DNA of 64,000 nt, from contig JAHJJI010000138.1 in assembly GCA_018823025.1 (NCBI GenBank), positions 1 through 64,000 of the forward strand. The letters run 5' to 3'. The DNA is from Gammaproteobacteria bacterium. GTDB lineage: Bacteria > Pseudomonadota > Gammaproteobacteria > Burkholderiales > Sulfuricellaceae. Positions within the stretch are counted from its first letter, which is position 1; each line of letters opens with the position of its first letter. The position numbers and the translations under genes were made by a program. Shown here one piece after another: positions 3,788 through 40,098 of the stretch. Under the pieces are notes generated by a model. That model saw only the letters and a list, made by a program, of their open reading frames with translations. It ran no database searches and was not told where the DNA came from.

Positions 3788-5026
3788 ATGAGCAAGGCTA
3801 AAGAACAAAAGAATCTGATCGTGGGGCTGGATATCGGCACCTCGAAAATCGTCGCCATCGTTGCGGAGATACTGCCTGAAGGGCGGCTGGAAATCATCGG
3901 CATGGGGCAGACGCCGTCGCGCGGTTTGAAGAAGGGCGTGGTGGTGAATATAGAGTCAACTGTCAACGCCATCCAGCGCGCGCTGGAGGAGGCCGAACTG
4001 ATGGCCGACTGCAAGATTCGCGAGGTCTACACCGGTATAGCCGGCAGCCATATCAGGAGCATCAACTCGCATGGCATGGTGGCGATCAAGGACAAGGAAG
4101 TGAATCAATCCGACGTTGACCGGGTGATCGAAACGGCACGCGCGGTGATCATTCCGACCGACCAGCAGGTGCTGCACATCCTTACCCAGGAATTCATCAT
4201 CGACGGGCAGGAAGATGTGCGCGAGCCGCTCGGCATGAGTGGGGTGAAGCTGGAGGTCAAGGTGCATATCGTCACCGGCGCAATCAGCGCGGCCCAGAAC
4301 ATCATCAAGTGCGTGCGCCGGTGCGGGCTGGAAGTGCGCGACCTGATACTGCAGCCGCTGGCATCGAGCATGGCGGTGTTGTCGGAGGATGAAAAAGACC
4401 TGGGTGTGTGCCTGGTAGATATCGGCGGCGGCACTACCGACATTGCGGTATTTACTGGCGGCGCGATCCGCCACACCTCGGTAATCCCGATTGCCGGTGA
4501 CCAGATCACCAACGATGTGGCCATGGCGCTCAGGACGCCGACGGCGGATGCCGAGGACCTGAAGGTGAAATACGGCTGTGCACTGCGCCAGCTGGCTGAC
4601 GCGAAGCAAATGATCGAGGTGCTCGGCGTCGGCGACCGGCCTGCACGCCAGCTGTCCCGCCAGACCCTGGCCGAAGTGATCGAGCCGCGGGTCGAGGAAC
4701 TGTACAGCCTGGTGCAGGCGGAATTGCGCCGCAGTGGTTTCGAGGAGCTGCTCTCTTCCGGCATTGTTATCACTGGTGGCAGCAGCGCCATGGAGGGTAT
4801 GGCGGAGCTGGGCGAGGAGGTGTTCCACATGCCAGTACGGCTGGGAATGCCACAGTACGTGGGCGGGCTAGCCGAGGTGGTGCGCAATCCGCGTTTCGCC
4901 ACCGGTGTAGGACTGCTGCTTGCGGGGATGGATCAACACCAGCGGCATCACCTGGCAACAATGCAGAACGGCTCGGTGACACAGATTTTCAATCGGATGA
5001 AGAGTTGGTTTCAGGGGAATTTTTGA
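3788..5026 (+). CDS. ftsA: Cell division protein FtsA
   Basis: FtsA is an actin-like ATPase that tethers FtsZ to the membrane. Phosphate-binding motif 1 is GLDIGTSKIVAIVAE near the N-terminus, the 1C domain follows (SHGMVAIKDKEVNQSDVDRV), phosphate 2 is VDIGGGTTDIAVF, and the adenosine motif is VITGGSSAMEG. The C-terminal amphipathic helix for membrane binding is visible in the last residues (IFNRMKSWFQGNF). At 412 aa it has family length. ATG 3788 has GGGAGA just upstream, and the gene is 15 bp after ftsQ. Confidence 0.97.
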   Translation: MSKAKEQKNLIVGLDIGTSKIVAIVAEILPEGRLEIIGMGQTPSRGLKKGVVVNIESTVNAIQRALEEAELMADCKIREVYTGIAGSHIRSINSHGMVAIKDKEVNQSDVDRVIETARAVIIPTDQQVLHILTQEFIIDGQEDVREPLGMSGVKLEVKVHIVTGAISAAQNIIKCVRRCGLEVRDLILQPLASSMAVLSEDEKDLGVCLVDIGGGTTDIAVFTGGAIRHTSVIPIAGDQITNDVAMALRTPTADAEDLKVKYGCALRQLADAKQMIEVLGVGDRPARQLSRQTLAEVIEPRVEELYSLVQAELRRSGFEELLSSGIVITGGSSAMEGMAELGEEVFHMPVRLGMPQYVGGLAEVVRNPRFATGVGLLLAGMDQHQRHHLATMQNGSVTQIFNRMKSWFQGNF

Positions 5027-5166
5027 GCGTTGGTTTGGCTACGACTAACCTGCTTCGCAGGAAAGTCTGCGCCGCAACAAGCCCTGCGGGCGTGTTGTCA
5101 AGGGAATTTATGAGCAGGTAATTTTTGGGTTTTTAAACTTTGGGTATAACAACAAAGGAGACAGGC

Positions 5167-6321
5167 ATGTTTGAGATCATGGACACACAAGGTCAGGAAG
5201 CGGTAATCAAGGTCATCGGCGTGGGCGGCTGTGGCGGCAATGCAGTGGATCATATGATCGCCAGTGGCTTGGGTGGCGTCGAGTTTATCTGCGTCAATAC
5301 CGATGCGCAGGCACTCAAGCGCAATCAGGCCGGCGTTACCGTGCAGCTGGGCTCGGCCATCACCAAGGGGTTGGGCGCGGGCGCAAATCCCGCAGTCGGG
5401 CGCGAGGCGGCACTGGAGGACAGAGAGCGTATCGCCGAGTTGATCGACGGTGCCGATATGTTGTTCATTACTGCCGGCATGGGCGGTGGCACCGGTACCG
5501 GTGCCGCGCCTGTGGTGGCCGAGGTAGCCAAGGAGCTGGGCATCCTAACCGTGGCGGTAGTAACCAAGCCGTTCGGTTTCGAGGGCAAGCGCATGAAAGT
5601 GGCGCTCGAAGGTATTGAGGCGCTGACGCAGCACGTCGATTCCCTGATCGTGATCCCAAATGACAAGCTGATGGAAGTGCTGGGTGGCAAGATTGGTTTC
5701 CGCGATGCCTTCAAGGCTGCCGATGGCGTGTTGCACGGCGCGGTGGCGGGTATTGCCGAGTTGATCAAATGCACCGGCTTGATCAACGTTGATTTTGCCG
5801 ACGTGCGTACGGTGATGTCGGAGATGGGTATGGCGATGATGGGTTCGGCTCAGGCAACCGGTGTAGACCGTGCTCGCATGGCGGCAGAGCAGGCTGTAGC
5901 CAGCCCTCTGCTGGAAGATGTCAACCTTTCCGGCGCGCGCGGCGTACTAGTCAACATCAGTGCCAGTGAGGATATGAATCTCGAGGAAGTCTACGAAGTG
6001 ATGAACACCATCCGCAGCTTCACAGCCGAAGATGCAACGGTGATTTTCGGTACGGTGTTCGACAGCACACTGCAGGACGAATTGCGCGTGACCGTGGTGG
6101 CTACCGGTCTGGGTTCGCCAGTCAACCGTCAGCAGAGCAAGCCGTTAAGCATAGTGATTTCGAAGACCGGTACCGACAATGAGCCGATGATGGTGGATTA
6201 CACAGAACTGGAGCAGCCTGCGGTGATGCGGCGTCGGCGTGATGCCCAGGTTGAGGCGATGAAACAGTCCGGTGTGGAATTGCTCGATATTCCGGCATTC
6301 CTGCGCAAGCAAGCTGACTGA
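5167..6321 (+). CDS. ftsZ: Cell division GTPase FtsZ
   Basis: FtsZ is the tubulin homologue that forms the Z ring at midcell. The GTP-binding T-loops are visible: GVGGCGGNAVDHM at residues ~15-30 and the tubulin signature GMGGGTGTGAAPVVAE at ~105-120. The conserved C-terminal peptide that binds FtsA and ZipA is DIPAFLRKQAD. The start is ATG 5167, since AAAGGAG lies about 7 bases upstream; a longer in-frame opening at 5140 is unlikely. This gives 384 aa. The 140-bp gap after ftsA holds a small hairpin (CCTGC-TTC-GCAGG at 5049-5061) and may contain a separate ftsZ promoter, with a weak -10 TATAAC at 5145. Confidence 0.98.
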   Translation: MFEIMDTQGQEAVIKVIGVGGCGGNAVDHMIASGLGGVEFICVNTDAQALKRNQAGVTVQLGSAITKGLGAGANPAVGREAALEDRERIAELIDGADMLFITAGMGGGTGTGAAPVVAEVAKELGILTVAVVTKPFGFEGKRMKVALEGIEALTQHVDSLIVIPNDKLMEVLGGKIGFRDAFKAADGVLHGAVAGIAELIKCTGLINVDFADVRTVMSEMGMAMMGSAQATGVDRARMAAEQAVASPLLEDVNLSGARGVLVNISASEDMNLEEVYEVMNTIRSFTAEDATVIFGTVFDSTLQDELRVTVVATGLGSPVNRQQSKPLSIVISKTGTDNEPMMVDYTELEQPAVMRRRRDAQVEAMKQSGVELLDIPAFLRKQAD

Positions 6322-36543: not shown

Positions 36544-36620
36544 GGGCCTGTAGCTCAGTTGGTTAGAGCAGAGGACTCATAATCCTTTGGTCCACGGTTC
36601 AAGTCCGTGCGGGCCCACCA
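36544..36620 (+). tRNA. ileX: tRNA-Ile2 (anticodon CAU)
   Basis: A full 77-nt cloverleaf with encoded CCA: acceptor GGGCCTG with CGGGCCC, D arm AGCTCAGTTGGTTAGAGC, anticodon stem GAGGA/TCCTT with loop CTCATAA (anticodon CAT), T arm CACGG-TTCAAGT-CCGTG, then A73 and CCA. A CAT anticodon can be Met or the lysidine-modified Ile2. The variable loop (TTTGGTC) and the place right after rpoD, where E. coli also has ileX, favour Ile2. The 3' half (36575-36620) is the left att site of an integrated element, so this part was delivered by the element. Confidence 0.88.
36575..36620 (+). repeat. attL (3' half of tRNA-Ile2)
   Basis: Direct repeat with 40040-40085. The two copies differ only at 36594 (A) and 36608 (T), a base pair of the T stem, where attR has T and A. 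Both copies can therefore form the stem. Confidence 0.9.
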
Positions 36621-36636
36621 ACAAAACAAGCACTTA

Positions 36637-36663
36637 GGCCACTCGAAAGAGTGGCCTTTTGCT
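36637..36663 (+). terminator. Terminator after tRNA-Ile2 (inside the element end)
   Basis: GGCCACTC-GAAA-GAGTGGCC is an 8-bp perfect stem with a GAAA tetraloop followed by TTTTGCTTTT. A similar but distinct hairpin follows the attR copy at 40099, so the terminator as well as the tRNA end is duplicated. Confidence 0.85.
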
Positions 36664-36676
36664 TTTATGGGGGTTT

Positions 36677-36697
36677 TTGCCGCAATATTGCCGCAAT
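36677..36697. repeat. Paired TTGCCGCAAT sites, left end of the element
   Basis: Two copies of the near-palindrome TTGCCGCAA lie side by side (TTGCCGCAATATTGCCGCAAT), 57 bp inside attL and upstream of the integrase start. The same double site with one base change is at 39903-39923 near attR. Likely binding sites for the integrase arm domain or a directionality factor. Confidence 0.7.
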
Positions 36698-36740
36698 AAT
36701 TTTTCTGGTTCATAATATTCAGTATTCTCCTTTTCGGGAT

Positions 36741-37802
36741 ATGAGTATGCCAAAGCAAGAAAAATTACCACATAACATTCGACTTCGCGGTGACTTACAG
36801 TATGCCGTTGAGATTCGGCGACAAGGGTTCCATGTTCACGAAACATTCATAACCCTCAAGCAAGCCATCGACTTTCGCGACAAAACCCTTGCCGATATCG
36901 ATGGTGGAGCTTTCCGCTCGACTGCACACCTTAAGAAGATTACCTTTGCTGTCCTAATCAAAAAATATATGGATATCCACATATTGGGTGACTCTGTGGG
37001 TGATGATGGTGAGCGTCGCCCGAAACCTTCTAAAAAGCAGGATTATCACCGTGCCAAAACCTGGCTTGGCCGTCCAATTGCCCATCGATTAGCCGCGCAA
37101 CTCCGGCCTTCGGACTTCGTTAAAGTAAGAGATGACCGTCAGAAAATAGATAAGAAAGCTAACAACACTATTCGCTTAGAGTTGGCATTCGCGCAATCTG
37201 TTTTCAAGACAGCGATTTGTGAATGGGGAATGGATATGTTGGATAATCCACTCGAAAGCGTCAAAAAACCACGCGGAAACAGACGCACCAGACGTTTGTT
37301 GCCGCATGAAGAGCCTTATCTGATTGCTGCCTTAAAGTCTGGCAGAAACCCAATGATGCTCCCAATTGTACGGTTTGCTATTGAATCGGCCATGAGGAAG
37401 GGTGAGATAGTTGGGCTCACTTGGGACAGGGTTAACCTGGAAGATGAAACGATTTCATTGACAGAGAAGGATACAAAAACAGATACCGCGCGAACCATTG
37501 TCATGACAGAGGAGGCCAAGGCTATCTTGGAGGCACTGCCAAGAACGCTCACACAGGTGAGTGTATTCAATACGTCTGCGAACGCCATAACTCTAGCATG
37601 GCCACATGTGCTTCTTCGAGCGCGCAAACTTTATGAGGAAGATTGTGTGAAAGCGGGCCACGACCCTGACCCTCGGATATTTAATGATTTCAACTTTCAC
37701 GACTTGCGGCATGAGGCCACATCACGGTTGGCGGCACGTTTGAAAAGCTTAAGTGTTGCCACCCTATACTGTCTATCGCTAGTAATATTGAACCAACCAT
37801 AA
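36741..37802 (+). pseudogene. int: Tyrosine integrase of the element, C-terminus lost
   Basis: The protein reads as an island-type integrase: an N-terminal arm-binding part, a SAM-like domain (residues ~85-190) and the catalytic domain with Arg I (ESAMRKGEIVGLTW), Lys (EKDTKTDTARTIV) and HDLRHEATSRLAARL (HxxR). Directly after this, at about 37743, the frame enters foreign sequence (19 odd residues, then stop). The segment with the second His/Trp and the nucleophilic Tyr is missing, so it cannot be a working recombinase. The start is ATG 36741 or 36747. The frame crosses into the remnant gene on the other strand. It would have excised or inserted the element at tRNA-Ile2. Confidence 0.88.
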
Positions 37803-38022
37803 GCACTCCAAGTGCCACATAAAATACCGTGCTTGCGTTTTTTATTGGCTTATCGAATGACGTTTTCATCTCATGATAAGCGCTCGCCAACCCAGCGCTT
37901 GTAGCACCTGGCAGAAGATTTTCAATTTGTTCATTTAAGGCTTTGTACTTAATTTTTTGTTTTTCTTCAAAGTCACTTAATACCTTTGTTCTCACATCCA
38001 ATTCGCTGGCGAGGCCTGTCAC
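37690..38022 (-). pseudogene. Remnant of a coiled-coil membrane protein gene
   Basis: 110 residues: a charged helical part (FEEKQKIKYKALNEQIENLL), then a membrane helix (TVFYVALGVLMVGSILLAID), then a tail whose last ~17 codons are the antisense of the integrase gene. The junction with integrase sequence is near 37740, so the 3' end is truncated. The 5' end is unclear: upstream to ~38140 another frame on the same strand reads ELEDGREKRTELALLHAIQ and GCLHVARHFLERSDRPRQR, which looks coding but has no identity I can name. Both pieces are probably debris of a central deletion. Confidence 0.5.
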
Positions 38023-38121
38023 TACGTTCCAGAAAATGGCGGGCTACGTGCAGACATCCTATGGAGCCGGCCTGAATGGCGTGCAGCAATGCCAGTTCAG
38101 TGCGTTTTTCCCGCCCATCTT

Positions 38122-39102
38122 CTAACTCCCCCTGGCTAGCGGCGGGGTTGGTAGTTTATTAACTTTTCTCGTCAGCAGGATGGTAGTTGCTAAAAGCGGC
38201 CTCGAAGAGCTGCCCTCGGGGCCTTCGCTGGCTGATACAAAACGCGCGCCACGCATGCGCGCGATGTCGTTCCTGACCTTATCACCTTCCTTGAGAAGAA
38301 AGGTGCTGAACTCGGCCTGCTGTCCGTAATCGTTGAACAGTTCAAGGAGTACTTCGACGAAAGTTGATTTGCCGTTAGCGCCATTACCATGGAGCAGGAA
38401 AAAGCATTGCTCGTCGGTTAGCCCTGTCAGACTGTAACCTACGACACGTTGCAGGAATAGGTCAAAGTCTTTGTCGCTGCTGGTGATTTCGTCGATGAAT
38501 TGCTCCCAGCGGGGAGCAGGTTCGTTGAGGCCTTTGTATTGAACTGGGGCCATCTTGGTCATCCGGTCGTCGCGGTCAAAATTGCGCAGTTGCCCGGTTT
38601 TCAGGTCAATGGTGCCATCAAGGCAGTTCAGGAGCATATGCCCCTGGTCAAGTTCCTCATGGGAGATAGGGATGCCGGGTTCCGTTTCCGCTAGCTTGAT
38701 ACTGGCTTGGATGCGCTGGAGGCTTTCACTGCGGCGGGAGTGCTTGATGAGTTCTTCGGCCTCCGCCTTCAGTTCGCTGCTGACGGCTTTGTTCGTGGTG
38801 CTGGCAGCCTGTGTTAAAAGGTTAGCCGCTTCCTTCAGAATGTCGCGGCAATTCGCCTTGGCGAGACGCATGACATCGCCGGTCTCGTCCTCCGTCCAGC
38901 GCTTGTCGTTCCAGGACAGCCAGATGCCGAGCTTGCTTACCCAGTGCAAGTTTTTGCCATAGGACGCAACCAAACGTTGTGCGTTGCCATAGTCGGTGCA
39001 TGGAATGGTCGCGGGTGGGGTAGTGGGAATGCTGCTCAATGCCGGGGAGGGAGATGGCGTTGCCGTTGCCGTAAGAGTTGGAGTGGTAGAGGCCATTAGC
39101 AA
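38122..39102 (-). pseudogene. P4-family phage primase/helicase, C-terminal part missing
   Basis: 326 residues. After an S/T/P-rich opening, the D5_N-type domain (residues ~40-215) leads to the superfamily-3 helicase Walker A, FFLLHGNGANGKSTFVEVLLEL, followed by FSTFLLKEGDKVRNDIARMRGARFVSASEGPEG. Family members go on for over 150 more residues (Walker B, motif C, D5 tail), but here the frame changes to unrelated sequence (SSSRPLLATTILLTRKVN...) and stops at 38122. A one-base shift near 38215 would restore only about 20 more residues, so both a frameshift and a deletion are possible. It overlaps the preceding alpA-like gene by 7 bp (operon). In P4 the alpha protein with this module starts replication of the satellite. 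Confidence 0.8.
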
Positions 39103-39464
39103 AACCCCCTCAAGGAAACTTCCTGCTGACGTTCTAATTGCTCCCGTTTCGTGGGACGCCCACGACGCTTTGCTGCGGGTTGGGAGAGTTTTACAACATT
39201 GGAAGGTTTTCCGGCTACAGAAGTAGGCGCCTGCTCATTCTTTGAGTTTGACCCATACACGATGGGCAGGCCGTTAATCCAGTTGTCCACGTCTCGCGAC
39301 GAAAACAGGATGTTATTGATGCCGGGGATTTGTTTTCTTGGAGGGAGTTTCTTGGTTTTCTCCGAGTCGGAGAGCATGTTCCGGATGGTGCCAGGCGCAA
39401 GCCCGATAACATTGGAGAGTTGTTCTACATTGAGTAGGCGAATGCCTGAATATTGTGAATCCAC
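39096..39464 (-). CDS. AlpA-like HTH regulator of the element
   Basis: A 122-residue protein whose first ~65 residues fit a MerR-like winged helix of the AlpA/excisionase type: LLNVEQLSNVIGLAPGTIRNMLS, PPRKQIPGINNILFSSRDVDNWING. The C-terminal part is basic (AAKRRGRPTKREQLERQ) and resembles an AT-hook. AlpA-like proteins activate or repress satellite and island genes and may promote excision. It is the first gene after the structured leader and is coupled to the primase. The frame is intact. Confidence 0.75.
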   Translation of the reverse strand: MDSQYSGIRLLNVEQLSNVIGLAPGTIRNMLSDSEKTKKLPPRKQIPGINNILFSSRDVDNWINGLPIVYGSNSKNEQAPTSVAGKPSNVVKLSQPAAKRRGRPTKREQLERQQEVSLRGFC

Positions 39465-39539
39465 GTGTAAATACCTCTAGGAGGCTCGTCGATATCAATA
39501 ACATCGACGGGCAAGCTAGGTGGGATACGTGGAAAACAA

Positions 39540-39867
39540 TGTTTTATATGTGTGGCGCCTTGTGACACGGGGGTGTGGTGCTTGCGGTAGCTCCCCCACC
39601 ATGAACCTCGTTAAGGTTCCGGGTAGCCCCACACAGCAGTCTATCCCGTCGCGGTTGCGTTGCGCTTCCTTCTCACAATCAGCCTAAGCTGATGGGGGTC
39701 GCCTTGTCACAACGCACCGGTCTGAGCGCTCCTCTTGGACTACGAGGTCTTTCCAATGAGTGACGATGCTCTGCCACTCCGCTCATTCCAGCCCACAACT
39801 ATTGCATCGAATGTTGAGCATGCTAGCACTGTGAAATGTGCTTGACAAGCCCCCACGATTTTTGATG
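39540..39867 (-). ncRNA. Candidate P4 CI / P1 C4-type antisense RNA in the leader
   Basis: No gene fits 39465-40039. The minus-strand transcript has three or more stem-loops (ATCAGC-4nt-GCTGAT at 39678-39693; GAACCT-5nt-AGGTTC at 39603-39619; CCTC/GAGG at 39731-39747). A central segment, read on the minus strand as GACAAG (39708-39703), GCGA, CCCCCAT (39698-39692), is complementary to GTGGGGG plus CTTGTC (39856-39844) at the leader 5' end, 12 Watson-Crick pairs and one G-U with a GCGA bulge. The CCCCCATC part also pairs with GGTGGGGG (39600-39593) further downstream. An antisense element flanked by two targets is the P4 seqA-seqB-seqC or C4 layout. The RNA ends given are approximate. The identity is inferred, not tested. 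Confidence 0.55.
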
Positions 39868-39873
39868 GAAAAG

Positions 39874-39879
39874 ATTATA
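39874..39879 (-). promoter_or_regulatory. Putative promoter -10 of the element leader
   Basis: A perfect TATAAT on the minus strand, preceded by TGGG. Transcription would start near 39867, about 10 nt before the GTGGGGG segment and 400 nt before the AlpA-like gene. No good -35 is seen; the double TTGCCGCAAT site lies just upstream (39903-39923) and could be an operator. Confidence 0.5.
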
Positions 39880-39902
39880 CCCAGTGATAAGAGGGAAGAT
39901 GT

Positions 39903-39923
39903 TTGCCGCAATCTTGCCGCAAT
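39903..39923. repeat. Paired TTGCCGCAAT sites, right end of the element
   Basis: TTGCCGCAATCTTGCCGCAAT, identical at 20 of 21 positions to 36677-36697, in the same orientation. It lies about 117 bp inside attR and just upstream of the leader promoter. Confidence 0.7.
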
Positions 39924-40039
39924 TCATTTCGTTATGATGTGATTTGTAATGATACTTAGTGAGAGCGATAACAATATAACATATTGTTTGTACATATATT
40001 TTATATGCAATGCCATATTTGACAGGGGAAAGAAATAAA

Positions 40040-40085
40040 ACTCATAATCCTTTGGTCCTCGGTTCAAGTCCGAGCGGGCCCACCA
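40040..40085 (+). repeat. attR (duplicate of tRNA-Ile2 3' half)
   Basis: Copy of the tRNA 3' half from the anticodon loop through CCA. It lacks a 5' half, so it is no tRNA gene. Its T stem reads CTCGG/CCGAG against CACGG/CCGTG in the active gene. By the logic of integration this is the original chromosomal 3' end. Confidence 0.9.
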
Positions 40086-40098
40086 TAAAAATGCAATA

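Follow-up and report, generated by a model that had tools for sequence, protein, structure and literature searches.

A structured leader before an AlpA-like gene in a decayed tRNA-Met element: resemblance to P4 immunity and a predicted stem over the start codon

Introduction

The question raised by this locus is whether a non-coding leader of about 400 nt, lying before an AlpA-like HTH gene and a P4-family primase gene, is an antisense-RNA immunity switch of the kind known from phage P4 and phage P1, or whether its structure serves another purpose. A preliminary description of the window (the whole stretch of 64,000 nucleotides analysed here) had taken three complementary segments of the leader for the counterparts of seqA, seqB and seqC, had regarded the surrounding element as a betaproteobacterial satellite and had suggested that the switch may still act as immunity against related elements. 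In P4 the order seqA, CI, seqC is found within one leader (PMC4825925), and the same order of segments is the published logic with which the leader is compared below.

The element and its nearest intact relative

The element is a 3.5-kb insertion at the tRNA-Met(CAT) gene that adjoins rpoD (36544-36620, plus strand), which is its integration target. It is bounded by a 52-nt direct repeat, 92% identical between its copies, the first forming the 3' part of the tRNA (36575-36626) and the second the far boundary of the element (40040-40091). Inside one end of the element, at 36676-36697, TTGCCGCAAT occurs twice in tandem and in the same direction, the copies 11 bp apart, and inside the other end a second such pair, 95% identical to the first, was found by repeat search at 39902-39923, just upstream of the leader promoter; from their position these are probably, or in the case of the second pair putatively, integrase arm-type sites.

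Next to the tRNA is the remnant of a tyrosine integrase (36651-37802, plus strand), which matches positions 2-142 of 172 in PF00589 and whose similarity to two intact integrases in tblastn stops near 37730-37751, before the C-terminal end that carries the catalytic Tyr. On the minus strand (38122-39096) is the remnant of a P4-family primase/helicase, some 250 aa of a protein of about 800 aa, with a match to D5_N, a match above cut-off to TIGR01613, a match to positions 333-572 of 772 in phrog_6088 and a tblastn alignment spanning 369-616 of 819. Domain searches and tblastn bear out the earlier remark that primase and integrase are broken, both being truncated. Between the two remnants an ORF of 110 aa (37690-38022) has a possible membrane segment and no convincing family match, and is possibly a fragment.

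The HTH gene itself (39096-39464, minus strand) starts with GTG and matches HTH_17 and a PHROG excisionase/regulator family, both weakly, with its homologues aligning from the same N-terminus. Its TAA overlaps the ATG of the primase gene in a TAATG junction. As integrase and primase are truncated, the leader and the system that it belongs to are probably a relic in the window, in which transcription and expression of the HTH gene may still be possible.

The nearest intact relative found, L061, is an element of 12.4 kb that comes from a different genome of the class and was reached through a profile of HTH homologues. It lies at the same tRNA-Met beside rpoD between identical att repeats of 48 nt, its integrase is intact and 36% identical to that of the window, and its HTH protein is 31% identical. 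The HTH gene of L061 heads an operon HTH-RepA-RepC with overlapping frames, in which RepA is a RepA-like ATPase (AAA_25) and RepC matches PF06504 with 228.6 bits, and the element further carries a MobF relaxase and a TrwB-like coupling protein. By its gene content L061 is therefore a mobilizable element and not a phage satellite. The IncQ-like replication module of this chromosomal tRNA-Met element (L061 positions 3932-5898) is accompanied by three 22-nt tandem repeats after repC.

Operons of this kind are not limited to L061. On plasmid pPNAP03 a related HTH gene lies directly before a RepA-family helicase, and on a Pseudomonas plasmid another lies directly before a replication initiation protein gene. 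Since such HTH genes head replication operons in L061 and in plasmids, the leader is placed here with the replication operons that integrative mobilizable elements and plasmids carry. The window element does have the P4-type traits of an integrase and a P4-family primase in a tRNA-integrated element, both of them truncated. Among the ORFs examined there are no capsid-hijacking genes of the sid, psu or delta types, a loss that decay could explain, and no relaxase or coupling protein was recognised in the ORFs of the 3.5 kb. With no capsid-hijacking gene here and a nearest relative that is mobilizable and has a RepA-RepC replicon, the satellite label is not upheld.

Layout of the leader

That a long, non-coding and structured leader precedes the AlpA-like HTH gene and the P4-family primase is confirmed. 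The presumed 5' UTR occupies 39465-39867 on the minus strand and the leader runs from a TATAAT through segments A, B and C to the GTG at 39464. The ORF list of the window has no ORF of at least 60 aa inside it on either strand, and the leader as a whole folds with a z of -2.65 to -2.8. The three segments and the perfect stem-loops of the preliminary description are all present, as is its TATAAT box. Segment A, GTGGGGGCTTGTC, is at 39856-39844, segment B, GACAAGGCGACCCCCAT, at 39708-39692 and segment C, GGTGGGGG, at 39600-39593, with stem-loops ATCAGCTTAGGCTGAT (39693-39678), GAACCTTAACGAGGTTC (39619-39603) and GTCGAT...ATCGAC (39508-39488), all on the minus strand. Pairing between B and C reaches nine contiguous pairs (CCCCCATCA with TGGTGGGGG).

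The TATAAT (39879-39874) is a possible -10 box, but the promoter scan does not call it as it has no acceptable -35. The scan instead calls TTGTCA-17-TAGCAT (39848-39820), with a TG before its -10, which is a consensus match only and which overlaps segment A. If this site is the promoter, transcription starts downstream of A and A would be absent from the transcript. On the opposite strand the scan called no antisense promoter within the leader.

A stem over the start codon

In the folding calculations the strongest structure of the leader is one that the preliminary description did not mention, a stem that includes the start codon of the HTH gene. The predicted fold covers 39452-39540 on the minus strand, pairs the GTG (39464-39462) with 39531-39529 and encloses an inner hairpin (39509-39487). 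The start region folds with a z of -5.0 and the GTG is paired with a probability of 1.0 in the local ensemble and in that of the full leader. Sliding folds place the excess stability where the HTH gene starts (39440-39590, with a z near -4), and it is the stem pairing the GTG that causes it; in the leader core (39620-39860) there is no gain in stability over shuffles.

Compared with a sample of 200 start regions taken from the window and from related loci, which are those of mechanically called ORFs and may in some cases be mis-started, the start region of the window falls in the lowest 0.5%. In the same ranking the HTH homologues of L061, L064, L131 and L128 fall at 1%, 2%, 11% and 18.5%, the first two being extreme as well and the last two tending in that direction; the start codon of L064 is a guess. 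Three further homologues (L003, L004 and L127) have ordinary start regions with no comparable structure.

The explanation preferred here, with about an even chance of being right, is that the leader is a 5' UTR by which translation is gated, directly for the HTH gene and by coupling at TAATG for the replication gene, in a small element that is integrated at a tRNA and has integrative mobilizable elements as its relatives. The stem would limit translation of the HTH gene, and translation of the replication gene would be limited together with it by coupled translation at the TAATG junction. Refolding of the leader, an antisense RNA or a protein could then open the stem, and it is possible that the long-range alternatives offered by A, B and C decide whether it opens.

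Complementarity of segments A, B and C

The complementarity was assessed with a count of helices that allows one bulge, against 1000 dinucleotide shuffles and against random 403-nt windows from the same DNA. A looser score for a duplex at the 5' end had given no signal (p 0.56) and was replaced by this stricter count, which was devised after the segments had been seen, so that the p values that follow carry the choice of statistic. Taken over the whole leader, the best long-range pairing has a p of 0.08 against shuffles. For the pairing of A with B, where the 5' arm lies within the first 45 nt, p is 0.021 and 8.2% of the random windows equal it, whilst for A:B together with B:C, by the same post-hoc statistic, p is 0.004 and 3.4% of the random windows equal it. 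In the ensemble of the full leader A:B is essentially unformed, with pair probabilities that sum to 0.01, and B is partly paired with C and partly elsewhere. The arrangement of repeat, anti-repeat and repeat is therefore present as described and mildly above chance against shuffles, but it is matched by some random windows and its A:B part is not populated; a real complementarity, modestly beyond chance, is weakly supported.

The same statistic can be applied to other leaders. Long non-coding leaders are also found in L061 (z about -5) and in L128 (z -2.9), these structures resting on folding energies and the copies of the L128 leader all being near-identical. In L061 CGTGACGGGGTTCTC is complementary to GAGGGTCCCGTCACG, which lies about 290 nt further on (p 0.009), and TCCCGTC, within GAGGGTCCCGTCACG, pairs in turn with GACGGGG just downstream, giving a triple with a p of 0.020. 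L128 and L064 have no such triple by the helix statistic (p 0.20 and 0.33). A triple in two of four leaders does not amount to proof. The leaders of L061 and the window do not align in sequence (p 0.51), nor do any two of the leaders, and so the likeness between L061 and the window is one of design and not of sequence homology.

An unlikely alternative to gated translation is that runs of G and of C, in a region that is GC-rich and decaying, produced the complementarity by accident, with no switch beyond ordinary UTR structure. The p of 0.08 for the best long-range pairing, the 3.4-8.2% of random windows that are as extreme, the shuffle-like folding of the mid-leader and the decay of the element are in keeping with such an accident, but the z values of the whole leader and of the start region exceed chance and L061 has a similar arrangement.

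Is the leader a C4/CI RNA?

It could also be argued that a short RNA holding segment B is cut from the leader and pairs with A and C, in trans or in cis, to stop expression of the replication genes, making it a functional analogue of P4 CI and P1 C4 that has either diverged beyond the C4 models or arisen independently. The A:B plus B:C result against shuffles and the triple of unrelated sequence in L061 are in keeping with such an analogue, as is the order of the segments, which is that of P4. Furthermore, a putative small ORF of 28 codons (39602-39516), with GAGG just 3 nt upstream, has its ATG overlapped by segment C, and C4-type targets often overlap leader ORFs.

Against this, an Rfam search of 39300-40000 matched no family up to E=10, including C4 (RF01695) and a1b1 (RF03163), where the control with phage P4 found CI as C4 with 74.9 bits and, beside it, isrK and a1b1, the latter with 44.1 bits. 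A local C4 model, trained on the C4 RNA of P4 together with nine from relatives, likewise found nothing in the window leader; it gives P4 79.8 bits, which shows only that the model works as P4 is one of its ten training sequences. Genuine C4 RNAs are readily detected in other genomes of the order, with an Rfam-type search finding C4 in 6 of 61 sampled relatives. The two-hairpin C4 fold was not recognised in the leader by the covariance models, and no isrK-like terminator hairpin follows segment A. As neither Rfam nor the local model matches where P4 scores, the leader is not a C4/CI RNA by these tests, and judged by its sequence it is outside the recognisable C4/CI family.

To this are added the random windows that score equally, the leaders of L128 and L064 that have no triple and the unpopulated A:B pairing, with the result that even an analogue of CI/C4 is rather unlikely. 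Phage P4 is of little help as a positive control for the helix statistic, since the p of 0.007 that its leader reaches comes from the outer stem of C4 and not from seqA and seqC. The suggested immunity against related elements is likewise not supported.

In genomes of the same order (L029-L038) C4 antisense RNAs are found with up to three matches per genome, two of them over the cut-off.

Other roles and other occurrences of the leader

It is improbable that the leader acts instead mainly as a DNA element, with integrase arm sites, a promoter, a replication origin or sites for the HTH protein in which GTGGGG repeats serve as iterons, for whilst arm-type repeats lie at both ends of the element and the leader holds three copies of GTGGGG that point the same way, with six in 3.4 kb (1.75 expected, with 2 of 200 shuffles reaching six), the GTGGGG repeats are irregularly spaced, the tandem 22-nt repeats of L061 sit after repC and outside its leader, and the start-codon stem is a feature at the level of RNA. 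A tandem repeat before the L061 leader, TTACGCCAAAATTACGCCAAA, resembles the second arm-type pair of the window.

A search for DNA homologues of the leader among phages, among plasmids and in 399 genomes of the order gave nothing but short, chance-like matches, and the best of these that were read lie in apparent coding DNA or in promoter regions of unrelated genes. A viral contig (L007) with an exact match to segment B was rejected, as the match is in an apparent coding region and the other parts are absent. Viral contigs hold no relative of the HTH protein or the integrase of the window, nor of the L061 HTH protein; they do hold relatives of the primase, 32-42% identical, and by tblastn the HTH gene is in none of them. 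About 30 loci with related integrases gave no convincing further element in which an HTH gene follows a leader, and an Rfam search of the L061, L127 and L128 loci up to E=1 found only a tRNA and its antisense.

Comparison with known systems

As in P4 CI and P1 C4 (RF01695, with targets RF03163), an untranslated leader stands before replication genes and has a middle segment complementary to segments upstream and downstream. It differs from them in having no covariance-model match, no two-hairpin fold and no isrK-like terminator, and in having a relative that is a mobilizable element. For the window the outcome is mainly a correction, in that a repeat and anti-repeat seen by eye resembled P4 immunity and that family models, controls and relatives support neither the family nor the satellite label.

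The gene order can be compared with that of the IncQ-type repF-repA-repC operon, where RepF regulates the operon, and which like the RepA-like AAA_25 and RepC PF06504 operon of L061 has a small HTH gene first, a helicase next and overlapping frames. Unlike an IncQ-type operon the window has a P4-family primase remnant where RepA-RepC would stand, and its leader is about 400 nt long. By its name the int-alpA RNA motif is a structured RNA of the integrase/alpA neighbourhood. It is listed as an Rfam family in PMC12370729, and up to E=10 the leader of the window matches neither it nor another Rfam family.

Structures that gate translation are also named for plasmid replication leaders, an example being the repZ pseudoknot of ColIb-P9 (PMC12370729). 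The window resembles leaders of the ColIb-P9 type in its RNA structure over a start region within a long leader, and differs in that no opposite-strand promoter was called within the leader and Rfam finds no known leader of this kind here. If the gating of translation preferred above, by a start-codon stem in a long leader, is general, it would point to control at the level of RNA for the replication of integrated mobilizable elements, whose usual descriptions are confined to their proteins. A bolder form of this idea is that HTH-first integrative elements carry a class of long leader RNAs that lies outside Rfam and lacks sequence conservation. In these RNAs competition between a 5' segment, an anti-repeat and a second repeat would set the opening of the stem at the HTH start, the logic of P4 having been reinvented; this is improbable.

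The interior of the window element (36575-40091) is inverted with respect to L061 (3005-15504) and L131, the integrase being next to the tRNA in the window and the leader being next to it in the other two. L131 (2425-15476), which is from the genus of the window, is a 13-kb element at a tRNA-Arg; its HTH homologue is preceded by a leader, and a hairpin covers the start region.
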